A stretch of 64,000 bases of DNA, taken from contig OZ017755.1 in NCBI GenBank assembly GCA_963969365.1, positions 1,922,001-1,986,000 on the forward strand. Reading direction: 5' to 3'. The stretch is from Asterochloris sp. CNOR1 (Eukaryota; Chlorophyta; Trebouxiophyceae; Trebouxiales; Trebouxiaceae). Positions 20,468 through 32,420 of this stretch are shown here, piece after piece. The translations under genes and the position numbers were made by a program. How positions within the stretch are numbered: the first letter of the stretch is position 1; every line of letters begins with the position of its first letter. Under the pieces are notes generated by a model. That model was given only the letters and a program-made list of their open reading frames with translations, was not told the origin of the DNA and searched no databases.

Positions 20468-23400
20468 TCAGAGCTCGGAGTTGCGGCTGGCCTCCACAGC
20501 ACGCAAGTATGCGGTAAGAAACTCTTTGATGCCCTGGAGGATGCTCTCCCGGTGCCCAAAGGAGGAGATGCCAAAGCCTATCAGATCCCTGGTGTCCCAT
20601 GTTGACCAGCATGTGCAGCTGCACGTCCTGGACCTCAAAGTTGCGCGCATACACCTGCAGGGCAGTAGGCAGCAGCAGGGTGACCACAGGCACCGCACAG
20701 AGCAGTGCGGCTGCTGCTTGCGACCTCAAAATAAACTGCTGTCAGCCGTGGGGCCGGCACAGAGACTGCTATGCAGTGCAGCACAGCCAGTACAAACAGC
20801 CTCAGGCACAGCAAGCTAACATGGCGAAGGGTCCAGATCCCACCTCCAGGTTGATGTCCCTGAGCAGGCCGCGCACACTGTAGGTCACAGAGGACGCAGG
20901 GCCTGGCAAGGCCAGCGTGGTGATGGGCATGGGCACAGGCGCTGGCCTGGGCGACCGCTGAAAGCTCAGAGCTGCCTGCTGCGCCTTGGACTCCGCCAGA
21001 GCTTGTTGGGCCTGAAGCCCACACAAAAGTGGTCAGCATGCAGGGCTTTCAGCCAGGCAGCAGCCATGCATGACACGGCAGTGCCCACATGCATGTACTG
21101 AGTCTCCATGCCGTCTGGCATGTTGGCACGTCGGCACGTCACAGCGCCTTCAAAGGCCACATTGATATGATCAGGAGCATGGTGGTATGATGGCCTGGCA
21201 CCCTTTGCCATCTCAGCCATGGCTTGCCTGCTGCAGGAGGGCCCCCCTCGTTCATCAGGCTAGCCTGCGTAGCCTTGAGCTGCGTCTCAAGCTCGTTCAC
21301 CCGCGAGGCATCCACCTGATGGGCCGTCTTCTCCGCCTGCTAGGTAGCAGAGTGTTGCATGTGACTGTGGCCCTGCCTAAGTGGCACGATGCATGCAAAG
21401 CCTGCCGGCCCCTGCAGTCCCTGGCATGCAGCACATCTCACAGATAGCAATGTCTGTCTTGGCTTGCACATTGTGTGTTTCATGCAGTACATCTCACAGA
21501 TGGAGGCACAGAGCACGAACTTGCAGGATGCTCCAGAAAGGCTGCAAGGCTGGGCTCCTAGCAGCCTTTGTGGAGCACTTTGGACAGGCAGAGCCAGAGT
21601 CTAACAGCCCATGCAGCAATGCAGTTTGCAGGCAGCTCGGCCTGCCTTGCTGGGCCGCTGCAGTGGCAGGCATGATGTCGCCCACCTCCAGGCTGAGCTT
21701 TGTCCTCGGCCACCTGCGCCTCCATGGCCGCCAGGGCTTCTGCCCGCTTTGCAGCGGACTCTGAGATGGCGGACGACACCTCCCGCGTCAGTTTTGCGCG
21801 AAGGGGGCGCCCGTGGGGGCAGCTCTGCCTGCTGCACCTGCAGGGCAGTCATGTGCTGGGTTTTGTGCGACTCAACAATGTCTTGTGGAATGTCTGCAGG
21901 CATGGGCAGCAGTCTGGGAGGCAGTGTGCACTGCAGTATGGCAAGCACCTGAACAAAAACCCTGGCTGAACCAGGATGCGTCATCGAAGCAGCCTGGGCA
22001 CCAGGGGCTGCCCAGTCTAAATCTGGGCACCTGTGGGTTGGCAACAGCTGGCAGCAATCTACCTGGGCGCAGGTCGCCCAAACCAGTCAAGCAAGCAGGC
22101 CAGTGCTGGACTCTGGACCGAAAAGGCTAACCTCTCACCTCAAACCAGCTGGACCACAATTGATGCAGCAATGCAGGCTGTTCAGCCGTTGGTGCAGCTC
22201 ACCAACAGGCTGGCAGCACGCTCATGCAGTTCCTGGCGGTCCTGCCTATCTTGCGCCTCTGCCCTCTGCTCCTCCTGGAAGCGCTTCATCCCATTCTCCC
22301 AGTCACCCACCTGCAGGCAGGACAACCCTAGCGACTCACTGTCCCAGTATGAGCCTGCCCTCAGGCAGCTGCCTGAGACGCCAAGCTTGCAGACTTGGCA
22401 CCAATGCCTGTAAGAGAGCCTTACCCCACAGACATCGGAGTTTGAACAGGATGAGGGCACTGCGAGCACAGGCATGCAGGGCCTCTCCATCAGGCGTGTG
22501 CAGGCAGAGCGCCCTCCAGCAGAGCACTGTGCGGCGGGGCATGCAGAAGGATGGAGCAGCGCGCTTCGACCTGCCCGTATCCTCAGCACAACACTGTGCC
22601 AGCCGGACAGGCAGATGAGCACGCAGCAGAAGAAGAGCATGCTGCCCACCTTGGCGAGGTATGTCACCATCTCGCCCTTGCCCTTGATGGCCCGCTTGCC
22701 CATGCTGACAGCCTGGCTCATGTGGGCTCCCCAGGTTCTTGTAGGCCACCTCGCTCAGGTGGATGCACATGGGAAGCTGTTGCTCTCCATGCGGCTGGCC
22801 ACATTGACGGTGTCCCCAATGAAACAGAATCGCGGGCACTTGGACCCAATCACGCCCGCATACACAGGCCCGCAGTGCACGCCTGCAGGCGAAGGAGGAA
22901 GCATAGGCCTGGCTTCCTTGCTGCCAGGTCAGGGGCTGGGGGCAGCACCAGCGTCAGCCTGCTCTGACCGCCTGCTGCCGACTGAGGGACAGGCAGCTGG
23001 AGACTAGGAAGGACCCCGCAAGCTTCCAGCAGCGAGCCAACCCAAGGACGCCGTCGGCAGGACACGGGGGATGCTCACCGACGCGGATCTGCAGTGCAGC
23101 CCCGTTGTTGGTCCGGAACTTGGCAGCGCAGTCCAGCATGGCCTTGGCCTGCACAGCAGTGTCAACCTGGCAGGCTGCCTTTGGGGGGGAGACCTGGATG
23201 CAGATGTGGCATGAGTGCCACCAGGGAGTAACTGGCTGCAGCTAGGAGGCCCTGCATTTGCCACATTGAGGTTCACGCCACACAGGCGCCACCCCACGCA
23301 ACAGGCTCCAGCTCACCATCATCATGAGGCGCTCTCATGGGAGTGCCGATACGCGCCTTGTCCTTGTCCTCGTCATGCCCAGCCGCCAGCATGTAGCCGT

Positions 23401-26400
23401 CACCTGCAGGGGGCAGGGGCACCCTGTCAGCAAGACAGCACTCTCTCTGCTGTGCTGCTCTGGAGCCTAGTACTGGGATGAGCTTCAGAGACAGGCAGCC
23501 TGAGCTGCCAGTCTTGTCAGGCTCACAGGACAGCAGTGGTGGGCTGCCTTGAGGCAAGAGCAACCAGGTTTGCAGGAAGGCACCTCAGCAGTGCAGACCC
23601 CACCAGGGCAGGCAGTCTGCACGCCCAGCCTGACATCAATACAGGCAGCCCTGCTGCAGTGCAAGGCACGATTGGCCCAGGGAATGCATCAGCAAGCAGG
23701 CAGGCAGTGTCACAGAGACAGTGCTCACCAATGGTCTCCACCTTGTACACTGCGTACTTGTCCACCAGGCGGTCAAACTGGGTGTACAAGCTGCAAGGAG
23801 GCACAGGAAGCTTCTCAGCGGCGTGCTGGGGCTCCTGTGAGCAGGGTGCCAAGCAGCAGAGCAGGCTGAGCGTGAGGAAGGGGCTCAGCAAGCCAGCAGA
23901 GGTGGTCAGAGTAGCTCCTCCCGTCCCATCTGGTCACTGGAGCAGACACAGCTTCTCTGGTAGAGGTGTGCTGTGCGTCGGACAGAGCCCCCTTCATGTG
24001 GTGACCAGCAGGATCAGATGAGGCACCGCTCTATCAGTGGACGTACTGCCTCTCCCTCAAGGCCCTTCACCAGAGACTCACTTGGTCAGCAGCAGGAACA
24101 CCTCCACGGCGGACATGGTGGAGGCCATGGTTGAGAAGCCCACAATGTCGCTGAACAGGATGGCCACATTGTCGTACGAGTCCCCAATGTATGCATGGCC
24201 ATCCTGCACCACAGGGGCAGGCAGTGTGGTGAGGGGCCTGCTGGCAAGTCCCTGTACCCGCTGTGCAGCAGGGGAGGGGCTCAGGGGCAACCAATGCACA
24301 GAGGTCTGCAGCTGCGTGGCTGCTCATTGAGGCTGCTGGCACAGCAGCTCCCCCAACTGCTCCATACGCACTTGCATGCTGCCTCATGCAGCTGCGCAGC
24401 ACGCTGCCAAGACATGCTGGTGACTCGAGCCCGATATAGCGCATGCTGGTGAGCTGCTGGGCGAAGCGTGTGTCCCCACACCTGCATGCGAGCGATGATG
24501 CACTCCGCAGGATGCTCTTCAGGATCTGCATGGCCTCTGTGTCCTCCTGCAGGACCCCATTGACGATGCTGGTGACCCAGGTGGCATCCTCCTTGACCCG
24601 CAGGTGGGTGCTGATGCGTGCCAGCAGCTCTGACCTCTTCAATGGCTTCCTGCAGGGGGGGGGGGGGGGGGGGGGGGCACGCTGCAGCGGTCAAGTGTGC
24701 TGCGTCTGCAAGGGTGCTGCAAGGTGCTGCAAGGCCTGTAGCTGCAGCCCTCAAGTGCACAGCATGCTGCAGCAGCCAGCCACCGGCCACAGGAAAGCTC
24801 AGCAGTGATGCCACAGACTATCTGCGCAGCAGCAGGGCTCAGACTAGAGGGGGACAACTCATGCCATCATGTAGTGTGACAGTTGTTGCTGGGTGAGGCG
24901 TATCCATGCATTGCCCTTATTGCCAGCAGTGCAGCTCCTGGAGCCATCCAGCCTCTCTAGCCCCCAAGCACAGCCCACTTCGGGTGATACATCACAGTGT
25001 GCCCCAGACTCACGAGAGGAAGTCGTTGCAGCCGTGCGACAGGCCCTCCACCACGTTGTCCTCATTGTTCTTGGCACTGATCATGATGACCGGCACCACT
25101 GCCTGGGGCACTGTCTTCCTCAGCTCTATGCAGAACTCATGCCCTGCAGAGACAGGAGGCACAAAGATCTCAGGACATGCTGGGCCTGGACGTCTGCATG
25201 AAGAAAGCACCAGCACCCTGCTATATCATTGAGTTTCCTTCAGCAAGGGTCCATGCAGGGCAGCCCTTGTGACAGGTGACAAGCCCGTGCTAATGCCAAC
25301 CTCAGGTCCTGTTAGATCCCTGGAAACTTTGAGTGCAGGTGAAGCCATACTCTGGCAACCTGGGTGCCCAGCTTGTTTCTGTGCAGACAGGCAGCAGGCT
25401 CGCCTGTCATGTTGGGCATCATGCAGTCCAGCAGGATCAGGTCCGGCAGGACCTTGCTCCCATTGATCCAGGCCAGCGCATCCTTGCCGTCTAGCTCGCT
25501 GTGCATCTGCAGCAGCAGCACCAACACCAGCCATCAGCAGCCTGCCAGCGCAACACCTCTCTCGCTAGATGGGCCTTCAAGCACCAACCAGCGCACATCC
25601 TGTCTCCAGGCACAGGGCAATCGCATCAAAGACAGACTGAAGCTTGGGGCAGAGCACAACTTGCTTGAGCCCGATGACTGCCACAGTCATTCACTGGAGG
25701 CTGCGCCAGTTGCAGCAGCCTGCAAAGCAGATCCTTGCAGCGGCCACTTTGTAGAGTGGCCTGCTCACAGCAAGAATGCAATGCAAAGCAGGACTTGTGT
25801 GCATGCTGACCCCAGCAGCGTCCACCATATAGTCCACAGACTGCAGGGTCGTTCTCCAACTGGGGTCTTCGCAGAACTGTACTCGAGGGAAGGTGACTAG
25901 AGCAGCAGCAGCCCACCTTGTAGCCTGCAGACTCCAGGGCCTCCTCAATGACCAGGTGGTTGGTGGGCTCATCGTCCACACTCAGGATGAGTGTGTTCCC
26001 ATACTCCTCCATGTGGGTGGGCTTGCGCTCTGTCAGGCACTTGCCGTCCCGCAGGCTGCAGGGCATGCCAGGGGCAGCCTCTGCACCGCCACTGCGCAGC
26101 GTCAACTTGCGGGGGACCTGTGCACACGCTCGTGCGTCAGTACAATGGTGCACCATGTAGGGCAGGCTTTGAGATGATGGCCCTGTGCTGCAGGCAAGTC
26201 AAAGTGCAAGATTCACACAGGCCTTGCTTGTGAACTGCAAGTCTCTTGCCTCTGCATACTGCCTTGGCACTCCATCAAGCATGTCAAGGCATGCAGAGCT
26301 CAGGGGATGAGTGCTTGCAGCCAGCACTGCAAACTGCTGGGACGAACTGCTGGCACGCTGCCATCATTTCGAGCCAGGTGTATTCTGTCAGCAGCTTGAA

Positions 26401-29400
26401 GGCGGCGGCTGGGCGCCTGTGTTGTGCACCTTGGGGGCGACACCGCCAGCGATATCGCCAACACCCTCCCATGCCGGGCCGCCTGTCCACTCACTCACCC
26501 TCCGATTGTTCAAGGCAACTGAGGACAGCGCAGCATGCGCCTCCAGCAGCTTGGCCTGCGCAGACAGCGTCTTCTCTGGGCCAGTGCCCACCCCGCCCTG
26601 GCCAGCCATTTCATGGGTCACTCTGATCAGACGGTAGGAGGGGGAGCTGGCCAGCGGGTTGACCTCGCCCTTGCTCATGTTCTTGTTGGTGATGGGGGTG
26701 GAGGTCACTGACACCTGGTTCTCCGGCTGCAGGGCGCAATAAGGGCACCTCTGACCACCAAGCCTCACTGGCGCGCTCATGGCAATGCAGGAGAAAGCAG
26801 CCAGCCACAGGAGACTTGCAGGCAGCCATGATGGCAGACGGCCAAGCAGTAGTCCTGCAGGCAGCCCCAGGAGCACAGCAGTGCTTGGGACCGGGAGCAA
26901 GGTCAAAGCTGGGTGCCTGGGCAGATTGGCACACCAGTGGGGGATTCGGGCAGGGAACGGTGACACCACTGGACTGAATTGGTCACAAAACACAGCAGGG
27001 GCCGCCCTCTACACCTTGGGGCTGTCACTAGCTGACCCTGCTAGAGGCTGGCGGGCCCTCACCTCCTCAACAACTGTCACATTGGCTGTCACGCCTGAGG
27101 AGTGGTGCAGGCGGCTGCCGCCGTCCATGTCAAAGGAGTGAGACACCCGACCAGTGGGCTTGCCCATTCGCTCCCCCAGGTCGAAGGAGCTCTCCTGCCT
27201 GTTGCCCTGCACATGCGCAAGGGACGTCAGCCTGGCTGGTGCTTGGCATGAGGTTCACCACAGCTCAGCGAAGGGGACACAACCCAGACACCGCATAGTG
27301 CTGGGGCGCGTCCAGCAGCAGCCCATGCAGAAGGGCAACAGTGCAAGGGATGCATTCAACCCATCTCAAATTGTACTGCTGCATCCAGTGCCGCACTCCC
27401 AGACGCTCACAGAGCAAGCTGCAGCCAGCGCCCTTCATGGAGCACCACTGTACATAATGCTGGCCAGGCCAGCTGTCAGCAGTGCTTTGCTGTGATGATG
27501 AATGAAAGAAACTGTGGAGGGTTCCCAGCACAGCTGTATACATTGGAACAACACCAGCAATCAGCAGAGCAGTACGGGAGAGCCTACATCAGTGGACCGC
27601 TGGTCCTCGCCACCAGAGTTGCGAGGGGTGGACTGCTGCATGTTCTTCCTGTTGCTCCAGTCACCAACTGAGCCCTCAGCCTGCTTCTGGGCCTGGCTCT
27701 CCGGCGGCTTCACAGGCAGGCGCACGGTGAATGTGGATCCCACCCCTGGGGTGGACTCCACATTGATGGTCCCCCCATGGGCCTCCACCAAACGCTTCAC
27801 AATGTTCAGCCCCAGGCCTGTGCCGCCAAATTTGCGAGCTGCCGTCATGTCACCCTGCAGGCAGAAGGGCTTGACCTGCAGACTATGCAGACAGACGAGG
27901 TGTGCCTCCCCTCAGGGATAGCAGTGCACAGGCTTCATGCTGAAAGCATGCAGCAAAAGGATTGTCATCCCAGCAATGGCAGCAGCACTTCAACCGGTGA
28001 AGTGCACAGGCAGCAGCTGCAAATCTGCTTGAAGCAAGGCAGTGGCAGACGCTGCCAGCAGCAGGGCACATGAGGTACAGTCCCAGGTGCCAGCACACCT
28101 GCCCAAAGGCGTCAAACACAAGTTTCTGCTTCTCCTTGGGAATCCCGCAGCCAGTGTCCTGCACTGAGAGCTGCAACATCTCCATGCCTGGGAGGCTGCC
28201 GGGCATGGGCTTCACAGACACTGTGATGCGCCCCTCTGTCGTGAACTTCACTGCAGCATGGCAGCACAGGCTGCTTCAAGGCAGACAAGCACTTGCTGAA
28301 CAAGCCCAGAGCTAGAGCACACTAAGATGCATGGCGTTGAGCACAGCTTGTCACAAATCACCTGAATTTCCCAAAAGATTGTAAAGCACCTGGAACAAAG
28401 ATCAGATGTTCAGTGTGCTGGCAGTTGGCACAAGCAACAGGCATGACATGCTGTTTGATAGCCATGGACAGCACCGACACGGCTGCCAAGGCAGGACAGC
28501 TTGCCTGTACTACGCGGCTGCCGTCTGCAATGATGTGGGGCAGGTCAGGCGCCAGGTTCTTCTCCAGGGTGACCTTCTTTTTCACCAGGTGCCCCATGAT
28601 GTCAAAAACATGATCCACGACCTTGTTTAGGCTGACCTGCACTAGCACTTGGAAGCAGTATGAATAGTTGTCATTGTTCTGGGCGCACTTCCATGCTAAA
28701 GCTGCCTGTCTTCCTGCATAGCAGTAGACCTGTTCAGGTGCTGATGCCCTGCAGCCGCCAAAGTTGCTGCTTCTAAGTCTGCTTGCAAGCAGCTGCTGAG
28801 CGCCCTGCTGCAGGGAATTAAGCTGAGACGTCCCACTGTGTCCAGGTGCTGCAGGCAAGCCAGCACAAGGGGCATGCCTCTGGCCATCCTCCAGCTCTGT
28901 GCTAAACTGTCTGCGGCCACTATTGCCCGTTTGGTGTGCAGCCTGTGATGCTCTGCCGCTGCACGCTAAGCCAATGCCAGTCTTTGTACTACGATCATGC
29001 CGCCCTGTACCAACCCCCCGAACCCTCACCCGCTCGGTCTTGAGCACCAGCTTTCCCTTGGCCATGGAGGCTGCATCCAGGATGTCGTTGATGATGTTGC
29101 TCAGGTGGTGGGAGGAATTCTTGATGGTCTTGATGTAGTGCAGACCCTTCTCGCCCAGTTGCCAGGGCCCGGGACGCAGCAAGGCCTCTGACAGGCCTGC
29201 ATGATGGATGCAGCCGCCCTGATTGATGCGCATCTCAGAAAAGGCACTGGTGTATACTGAAATTTTTGTCTGTGCAGATATCAAATGAGTGCTGGCAGCC
29301 TCCCCTGCAGCTGCATCTGCAGGCAAATCTTAATCTGCATCACAAAAGGAACCCGCTGCTCGGATTGGCTTGAGGGACGCTTGTCTTGCTGGCAGATTGA

Positions 29401-32400
29401 CATCTTGGGTTGGGCTCACCTATGACACCATTGAGTGGTGTGCGCAGCTCATGCGACACCACCGACAAGAACTCTTCCTTGACCTTCATGCTGGCCTTCA
29501 GGTCCTCAATCAGCTTCAGCCTGCAAGCATCGGGGCCCAGCTGCTCAGCTATCTTGATGCCATGTCACGCAGAGGTGCATGCTTTGGTGCACATGGACAG
29601 GCTTGCAGTGTGCTCTGTGTGCCTCCAGAAATGGCAGCTGAGTTGCTGCTGGCGACCTGTTGGGGTCACCAAACACTGTGTCAGCAGCACCCACAGGCAG
29701 CATCTTTAGGGCAGCACTGACCCACACCTGTTGGCATGCTCAGCAGCCTCCTTGGCCAGGGCACGCCGCTGCGCAATGGTCAGGAAATTGCCGTACATGA
29801 CTGAAGATGAAAACAGCACCTGCAGAGCAGCAGCAGGCAAACTTGTGTGTTCACTAGTTCTTAGTGCAGCACAACCAGGGCAATATGCAGGCTGCACCGG
29901 CATGTCCTGAAAGTACAGCAGGCGCAATAGTCAAGCCACCTGCGGCCCCAAGCACGTTGCTGAGTGTTATCGTAAAGCATGACCATAGCACACAGTAGTA
30001 GGCTCAACTGCAGCTCACCACAGCAAGCAAGCTGCAGCCTGAAACCTAGCAAGCTGCTGCGTGACCTGGCACTGTCAGGCCCTGGCAAGCTGTCAGGTGC
30101 CTCTGGTTGTGCGCAACTGAATTTGGCTGCAGCACGACCACCAGCTGAAGCTGGACATACTGTTCTGCGGGCAGCCCACCTTGGCCACAAAATTTGCCAC
30201 CAGCGTGCCCAACTCGCAGTTATAGACGGACAGGATCCCCAGCTGCTGGCAGCACCAATATATGGGGAAGGCTAGCCACACCACCACCGTGCTCCAGAAG
30301 ATGAAGAGCAGCCCTGAGCGGGCCTCTGAATTGCTCTCCTCTGTGAGAACACTGCCCACCATCTTGCCCATTTCTATCATAACGAAGACATAGAAGAAGA
30401 AGGACATGCAAATGTACAGCCCTACACGGCAGAGGAGGGTGGTCTGAGGTTGCCGACTAATGGGGAGGCAGGAGGAGCTAGCAGTCAGGTGCCACTGGCC
30501 AAAAGTGCATTGCAAATCTGCTGACCCTGCACCTGCTTGGGGACGCCCTTTGAGCAACAGGTTTTGGTGTAGGCACAGCAAGCCAAAGCCATGATGCAAA
30601 GCAGCCAAAGATGGCCAGCTGTGCAGGCTTGCGCTGTAGCACATATCAGGCTTACACTCTGAAGACCCAGAGGAACCATTTACCTTCTGCCACTGCTTCA
30701 AAGAGTGCACAGCAGACTGCCAAGTTTGGTCACCAACACACTGATGGGAACCATAAGGCAACACAAAAGGGTGCCTCACATCCAGGACTGCCTGCCACAC
30801 AGGTGGGGCTTTGCACTCACAGAAGAAGATGCCCGGAGACAACTGTGAGAGTAGGCCCGTGACAATCACCACGACCTGAGCCCCCACCGCCAGGGCCACC
30901 CTTTTGGTGGAGAAGGACGAAATACGCGAGATGACATACACCAGTGTGGGTGTGGTTAGGGCCCACTGGATGTAACGATTAACCACACACCTGCAGGCGG
31001 GCATGTCAGCACCTGATATCCAGTGCTGGACTGACCTGCTAAGCTGTCATCTGTGCCGCACACAGGCAGCATGTTTCATCTGATGCTGGCTGGCCTGATC
31101 TGCTGAGCTGCCAACTGCCGCAGTCTGCACAAGTCCAATCACAACAAACAGACATGCACAGGCCCAGAGGTGACTGGGCGGCTGCCTGGGCAGTCAGGAT
31201 TGTGTTCTAAACATATTAGGTGCAGGCCTTCGTGTGGCTTTGCTGCCTTTGAGCACTACTTGACAGCAGGCTGCAGCTGGTCAATACAGGTCAGGTGCAC
31301 AGGAAACATCACAGCCGGGCTACTCGCTGCTGGTCAGCACAGGTCAGACGCACGCGTACCAAGAAAGCAGGGCTACTCACGGGGTGCCGTTGGGGTCCAT
31401 CAGGATGATACCCTGCCCCGTGCCAGTCACGAGGTCCGCATAGGCGGCTGCACCCTTGATGAAGCAGGACAGCAGGGCTAATTGTTTCTGCAGTGACAGC
31501 AGGGCATATCCGTAATCCTACTCTGCAAGCTGCTGCTGCAACAAGCAGCAGCAGGCAGCTCAAGGCCATGTTGGCTGCAGTGCAGCTGCTGCAGACAAAG
31601 GAGGCAGAGACCTCAGAAGCTGCCTTGCATGGAGTATCCCAGCTGGTCCTGGTTTTGTAAGCTGCTGCACACAGCCAGGCAGCAGCAGGCCTGCAAACAA
31701 GCAGCGCAGACAGGTGGCCCACCTTAGTGGCACCAGCCTCATACAGAAGGGAGGTAAAGTTGATAACCAGCGCCGACAGAAACGACGCCACACTGATCTG
31801 GTAGTGCTGCTTGGGCACCTGTGACAGCCCATAAGCCTCTCTGAGCAACAAGTTGGGTCAAGGGGGTTGTCAGCGCCAGGCTGCCCAGTGGTGGGCTCTG
31901 AGAAGAGTAGTGCAGTCACATGGCGTAGATATGGCTGGCGAGCCAGAATGTGCAGCTGCTCTGCAACAGCTGGCACCCCACCTGGGAGAAGAGCAGCTCT
32001 ACTGCCTCAGGGTCGGACTTAATGCCAATGTAGGGCAGGCCATGCTGCAAGCCAATCAGCATAGCTGTCCCCACCCTGCAGCACAGCTGTCCTCACAAGG
32101 CAGGACAATGCTGACAGGAGTGCATCAGCGCTACGCCTGAGCACATGCTCTGTGTGTCAGCAGTGAGCCAGCAAGTGACGTAATGCGCATCGCCCCGAGT
32201 CAAGCCATGCATATGCAAGCAGAGCTCACATGGTCCAGATGACAGCGATTCTGAAACCAGCATGGTCCTCCTCATAGGGCTGAAAGAATGTCAGCTCCTC
32301 TTTATGGGCTGCATCTGGCGCTGCTGTGCTGGCAGGGGCAGCGCCCGCTGGGGACAGCAGGCGTTTTGTCTCCTCTGAGGGGAGAACCTTGGGGGCAAGC

Positions 32401-32420
32401 TTGGTGAAGAAAGGGGCCAT
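20468..32420 (-). CDS. Two-component cyclase opsin: rhodopsin, histidine kinase, receiver, guanylyl cyclase, coiled coil
   Basis: A 12-kb gene for a light-regulated enzyme of the 2c-Cyclop class (light-inhibited guanylyl cyclases known from Chlamydomonas and Volvox). Opsin exons 32420-32230, 32075-31982, 31818-31723, 31487-31381, 30990-30821, 30421-30180, 29819-29728 join exactly in phase. Helix C reads [10 protein letters not shown], helix F WLAFPIYW, helix G NFVAK (retinal Lys). Kinase: [10 protein letters not shown] (His), [23 protein letters not shown]. Receiver: [17 protein letters not shown] (phospho-Asp), SAKN, FLSKPL. Cyclase: [36 protein letters not shown], with both metal Asp, guanine-selecting Glu and Cys, and catalytic Asn/Arg. 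TYLAK joins in phase to a Gln/Glu-rich coiled-coil tail ending ASRNSEL. Several single-base shifts in the cyclase and tail (near 24506, 22772, 22730, 21805, 20597) look like run-length errors. Confidence 0.9.
24655..24677 (+). repeat. 23-G homopolymer forming an intron polypyrimidine tract
   Basis: Twenty-three consecutive G on the plus strand. On the coding strand of the cyclase-opsin gene it is C23 followed by TGCAG, directly at the acceptor of the exon carrying [12 protein letters not shown] (receiver-cyclase linker). Its length is unlikely to be exact and may vary between individuals or reads. Confidence 0.95.

Follow-up and report, generated by a model that had tools for sequence, protein, structure and literature searches.

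An AsRh3-like two-component cyclase opsin in Asterochloris sp. CNOR1 with both usual counter-ion carboxylates replaced and a cyclase reading frame broken in the assembly

Opsins without a carboxylate at either of the usual counter-ion positions have been described among the modular rhodopsins of algae. By the count of Awasthi et al. 2020 (PMC7693036), Gln occupies the position equivalent to bacteriorhodopsin (BR) 85 in 17 of 47 modular rhodopsins and Asn occupies position 212 in 6, and the pairs Gln/Asn or Asn/Asn are tabulated for six modular algal rhodopsins, with Gln85 and Asn212 given in Table 2B for Cop6, Vop6, GpRh3, and AsRh3 and Asn at both positions for AsRh1 and AsRh2. Cop6 and Vop6 are recorded there as lacking Asp85, Asp96, and Asp212, yet they are working light-inhibited guanylate cyclases. 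These two proteins are Cr2c-Cyclop1 and Vc2c-Cyclop1, respectively, for which action maxima of ~540 nm and ~550 nm are given (PMC6284317). According to a review by Broser (PMC8815786), the common counter-ion positions of HKR2 hold no carboxylate, and the protein is still most sensitive to green light, likely via water and ions; since Tian 2018 is the source that the review gives for HKR2, we equate this protein with Cop6. Cop5/HKR1, which has Met at 85 and keeps Asp212, is described as bistable between UV and blue (PMC8815786, PMC7693036).

We analyzed a window of 64,000 nucleotides from Asterochloris sp. CNOR1 (contig OZ017755.1, positions 1,922,001 to 1,986,000), in which a multi-exon gene runs on the minus strand from ~31.8 to 20.5 kb and encodes an opsin, a histidine kinase, a receiver, a guanylyl cyclase, and a possible SAM tail (Table 1). 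The gene model was spliced by hand from splice sites and is partial at its 5' end, with the opsin part modeled from helix A to helix G. Sixteen consecutive exons of this model, reaching from helix A through the third exon of the receiver and totaling 2,390 bases, form a single open frame, with AG acceptors throughout and GT donors except for two GC donors, whose introns lie at window positions 28504-28390 and 25403-25144 on the minus strand. Pfam matches on the spliced stretch of 844 residues comprise Bac_rhodopsin (1e-24), HisKA (2.3e-17), HATPase_c (8.1e-31), and Response_reg (3.2e-26), and the minus-strand open reading frame at 30093-31046 matches Bac_rhodopsin on its own (1.2e-17, two stretches matched). 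The separate piece of cyclase that lies between the first two of the frame breaks described below contains no stop codon and matches Guanylate_cyc at 1.2e-41. The protein thus combines features of a 2c-Cyclop: a microbial-type opsin with the retinal Lys, a histidine kinase with both a phospho-acceptor His and an ATPase domain, and a receiver with a phospho-acceptor Asp in LLDCMMP. The extra eighth transmembrane helix typical of 2c-Cyclop proteins was not found by eye upstream of the modeled opsin. A run of 23 C, an error-prone kind of sequence, stands at window positions 24655-24677 (minus strand), immediately ahead of the acceptor for the final receiver exon and ~150 bases from break 1.

Table 1. 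Features of the window gene (window coordinates) and its two paralogs elsewhere in the genome.
Feature	Position	Strand	Evidence or remark
Opsin helix A exon	31723..31818	-	Hand splice model, AG/GT ends
Helix B exon (IKGAAAYAD)	31381..31517	-	Hand splice model
Exon from helix C onward, Gln at BR85, Val at BR96	30821..30990	-	Splice model, Pfam, alignment to solved rhodopsins
Exon reaching helix G: helix F W..P..W, NFVAK, Asn at BR212, retinal Lys	30180..30421	-	Splice model, Pfam, alignment
Opsin-kinase linker exon	29728..29819	-	Splice model; 42% identical in both paralogs
Histidine kinase exons, introns included: HELRTP phospho-acceptor and ATPase boxes	27588..29520	-	HisKA 2.3e-17, HATPase_c 8.1e-31
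Receiver exons, introns included: VDDE, LLDCMMP, SKP	24511..26117	-	Response_reg 3.2e-26
Frame break 1, between LKSIL and ECIIARMQ	24505..24510	-	One base fewer than in either paralog
Guanylyl cyclase exons, catalytic residues kept, unbroken frame limited to the part between breaks 1 and 2	22650..24505	-	Guanylate_cyc 1.2e-41
Frame breaks 2 and 3	22701..22773	-	One base fewer, then a net five fewer, than in either paralog
C-terminal SAM-like segment with probable frame break 4 near 20597-20594	20468..20660	-	SAM_2 E 0.0011
Paralog with Asn at BR85 and BR212, AsRh2-like	C1:4433001-4450800		Intact at the three window break sites
Paralog with Asn/Asn, AsRh1-like	C14:1873001-1889800		Intact at the three window break sites

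The sequence-only reading of this locus had proposed a two-component cyclase opsin with both counter-ion carboxylates replaced, and the domain order and an alignment to solved rhodopsins bear this out. In a phmmer comparison, RYIQW aligns on RYAEW and VANFVAK on VADYAAK of the rhodopsin phosphodiesterase 7cj3 (RhoPDE, 3.1e-11), which places Gln at BR85 and Asn at BR212, and so answers the concern that the counter-ions might lie at other residues; counting on from Arg82 gives Val at BR96. The assignments of Gln, Asn, and Val made earlier from the letters are therefore confirmed, as is the retention of the retinal Lys, of the helix-C Arg (Arg82), and of the helix-F W..P..W (W182, P186, and W189). 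Although 7cj3 is the closest solved opsin domain by sequence, its two counter-ion sites are occupied by Glu and Asp and its output is a phosphodiesterase, whereas the window gene combines Gln/Asn with a cyclase. By eye, two acidic positions recur across the window opsin and its two paralogs, an Asp in helix B and a Glu at BR205, which may or may not face the Schiff base. The Lys and Asp of the helix-B motif are also present in the C14 paralog, and the helix-B Asp of the C1 copy was read across a splice judged by hand.

The window protein agrees with AsRh3 at all eight of the tabulated positions, with Q, T, T, V, N, L, C, and K at BR 85, 89, 90, 96, 212, 194, 204, and 216, listed for AsRh3 as Q78, T82, T83, V89, N203, L187, C195, and K207 (PMC7693036, Table 2B). 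The spacings from Gln to Asn (125) and from Gln to the retinal Lys (129) are likewise identical, as is Leu at tuning position 105, and AsRh3 is printed with a cyclase in a kinase-receiver-cyclase architecture (PMC7693036). The Gln of AsRh3 is numbered 78 in that table, whereas the partial window model already has at least 86 residues up to its Gln, so the two gene models differ at the 5' end. We conclude that the window gene is very probably the same gene as AsRh3 or a very close ortholog, a match made on tabulated residues and spacing, and that it encodes a Cop6/2c-Cyclop1-like two-component cyclase opsin that, by analogy, would bind all-trans retinal as a green-absorbing protonated Schiff base and be inhibited by light. 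Two presumptions enter here: we take the prefix As to stand for Asterochloris, the main text of the tabulating paper leaving it unexpanded, and we take its tuning position 105 to be BR93.

This match also bears on how unusual the residue pair is. The idea that Gln/Asn might be unique to this opsin is rejected, since the same residues and spacing are already in print for AsRh3, and, compared on tabulated residues, the pair recurs in Cop6, Vop6, and GpRh3 (PMC7693036, Table 2B). Base errors at the Gln or Asn codons are rejected as well, because the independent AsRh3 record agrees in both residues and spacing. Counter-ion replacement is thus already known for this family, and the AsRh3 type of gene is already tabulated.

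What the genome adds is a set of three opsins in one alga that lack both counter-ion carboxylates, one Gln/Asn and two Asn/Asn, which could aid comparative spectroscopy. The two further two-component cyclase opsins lie on C1 and C14; they were not listed in the first opsin-profile search of the genome, but a search with the window opsin returned the C1 copy at E 0.00126 and, weakly, the C14 copy at E 0.288. Both were also recovered with the cyclase and HisKA profiles, and the C14 copy is supported by kinase and cyclase exons. Read by eye, the C1 paralog has N85, T89, T90, L96, N212, L194, S204, K216, and Ile at 105, and agrees with AsRh2 at eight of eight tabulated positions (PMC7693036). The C14 paralog has N85, T89, T90, N212, L194, T204, K216, and Met at 105 and agrees with AsRh1 at seven of the seven readable positions, position 96 lying beyond an intron and hence outside the readable set. 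With all three tabulated As cyclase opsins recovered, we infer that the tabulated proteins come from this alga or from a close relative of it.

Cop6 and Vop6 share with the window protein Gln85, Asn212, Thr89, Thr90, the retinal Lys, and the order opsin-kinase-receiver-cyclase, and differ in having Ile rather than Val at 96. Light-inhibited cyclase activity has been demonstrated for them; the window gene has its cyclase frame broken in the assembly. Domain order and residues are read from the window gene itself; its color, light inhibition, and phosphorelay would follow those of the relatives. By analogy with Cr2c-Cyclop1, all-trans retinal would be bound as a protonated Schiff base absorbing in the green, its proton probably held by water, by the Gln and Asn side chains, or by a bound anion. 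In the dark, the kinase would autophosphorylate and pass the phosphate to the receiver, which in its phosphorylated form would keep the guanylyl cyclase on, and light would stop this relay.

The earlier suggestion was of exceptional photochemistry instead, a pigment absorbing in the UV or blue or unprotonated in the dark, on the ground that neither BR85 nor BR212 carries a carboxylate. Cop5/HKR1 lends this some plausibility, since it shares the opsin-kinase-receiver-cyclase architecture and the lack of Asp at 85 and switches between UV and blue. Cop5 is not the closer analogue, however, because it retains Asp212. It is Met85/Asp212 where the window protein is Gln/Asn, and its cyclase showed no activity and is missing conserved residues. 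Since Cop6 and Vop6 are without these carboxylates and yet are best inhibited at ~540 to 550 nm, a UV/blue or unprotonated pigment is not the default expectation, and we regard it as very improbable. The plainest prediction is the green-absorbing protonated Schiff base. How such a Schiff base is maintained with no carboxylate at either counter-ion site is a fair question that Cop6/HKR2 already pose.

Downstream of the receiver, the reading frame of the cyclase is broken at three places in the assembly, each of which is intact in both paralogs. At break 1, LKSIL and ECIIARMQ fall in different frames, with 8 bases in the window against 9 in both paralogs, where the site reads LKSILPDKIIARIQ and LRSILPDRIIRRMK; the frame as modeled past this break meets a stop within the first cyclase exon. 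An intron at break 1 was considered and rejected by inspection, because it would remove the LKSIL stretch, which has a similar form in both paralogs. At break 2 (near 22773-22771), the frame shifts after MESNSFP, the window having 17 bases and each paralog 18, and at break 3 (22744-22701) it has 43 bases where each paralog has 48; a TGA (22757-22755) interrupts the original frame between these two breaks. A fourth break probably splits the SAM-like segment, the second half of which matches SAM_2 below the curated cut-off. This segment has no match in the paralogs, and the comparison with them covers the three cyclase sites. The cyclase itself contains the motifs FSDIVGF, VETIGDGY, RFC, and NVASR. 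We take their catalytic residues to be the metal Asp of FSDIVGF, the Glu and Asp of VETIGDGY, the Cys of RFC, and the Asn and Arg of NVASR. The earlier statement that kinase, receiver, and cyclase have full catalytic sets thus stands as to the motifs, and its corollary that selection on output seems intact is weakened by the frame breaks in cyclase and tail.

These breaks may be errors of the assembly, in which case the protein is a complete 2c-Cyclop, or they may mean that the cyclase half is decaying or lost and that the gene product now works through opsin, kinase, and receiver, either by itself or partnered by a paralog. The position of the damage speaks for decay: all of the modeled exons upstream are in one open frame, whereas three breaks fall within ~1.8 kb of cyclase at sites where neither paralog has any, the modeled frame past the first ends in the first cyclase exon, and a probable fourth lies in the tail. 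The character of the damage speaks for error. The indels are small, and by eye three of the four adjoin short runs of G or C. The cyclase keeps its catalytic residues and its strong Guanylate_cyc match, which would fit either an error or a very recent loss, and AsRh3 is listed with its cyclase (PMC7693036).

A frame control was made on three conserved gene families. It comprised 74 HSP70, 67 Cpn60, and 146 kinesin match segments, 287 in total over 49,095 bases, drawn for HSP70 and kinesin from 73 of 82 and 122 of 151 candidates of the first-look set. None of the 287 segments showed a close frame split, and no consecutive matches lay nearer than 59 bases, the smallest gaps being 59 bases in HSP70, 168 in Cpn60, and 95 in kinesin. 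This absence favors decay and counts against error, but the control is blunt: a break leaving a short piece would escape detection, and internal stops, which may be read-through introns or further breaks, occur in 24 of the 287 (4 of 74 HSP70, 4 of 67 Cpn60, and 16 of 146 kinesin). The completeness of the catalytic set makes us lean slightly toward assembly error, which we hold to be the rather probable reading, with decay a possible but somewhat doubtful one. If the breaks are real, the locus would show how a receptor can lose its output domain. In one version of such a loss, which we consider unlikely, the AsRh3-type receptor of this strain recently lost its own cyclase frame with opsin, kinase, and receiver intact, and its carboxylate-free light input would signal via a different protein, perhaps an AsRh1- or AsRh2-type paralog with which it pairs.

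The genome also contains two pump-like opsins, on C10 and C4, with RYIDW and an Asp in helix G (DIVAKV and DVAAKI); the C10 opsin additionally has Asp at BR96, as tabulated for AsRh4 (PMC7693036). A further opsin-like match at C4:4061001-4070900 has a stop inside the matched stretch and reads WSFYPLIW in helix F.
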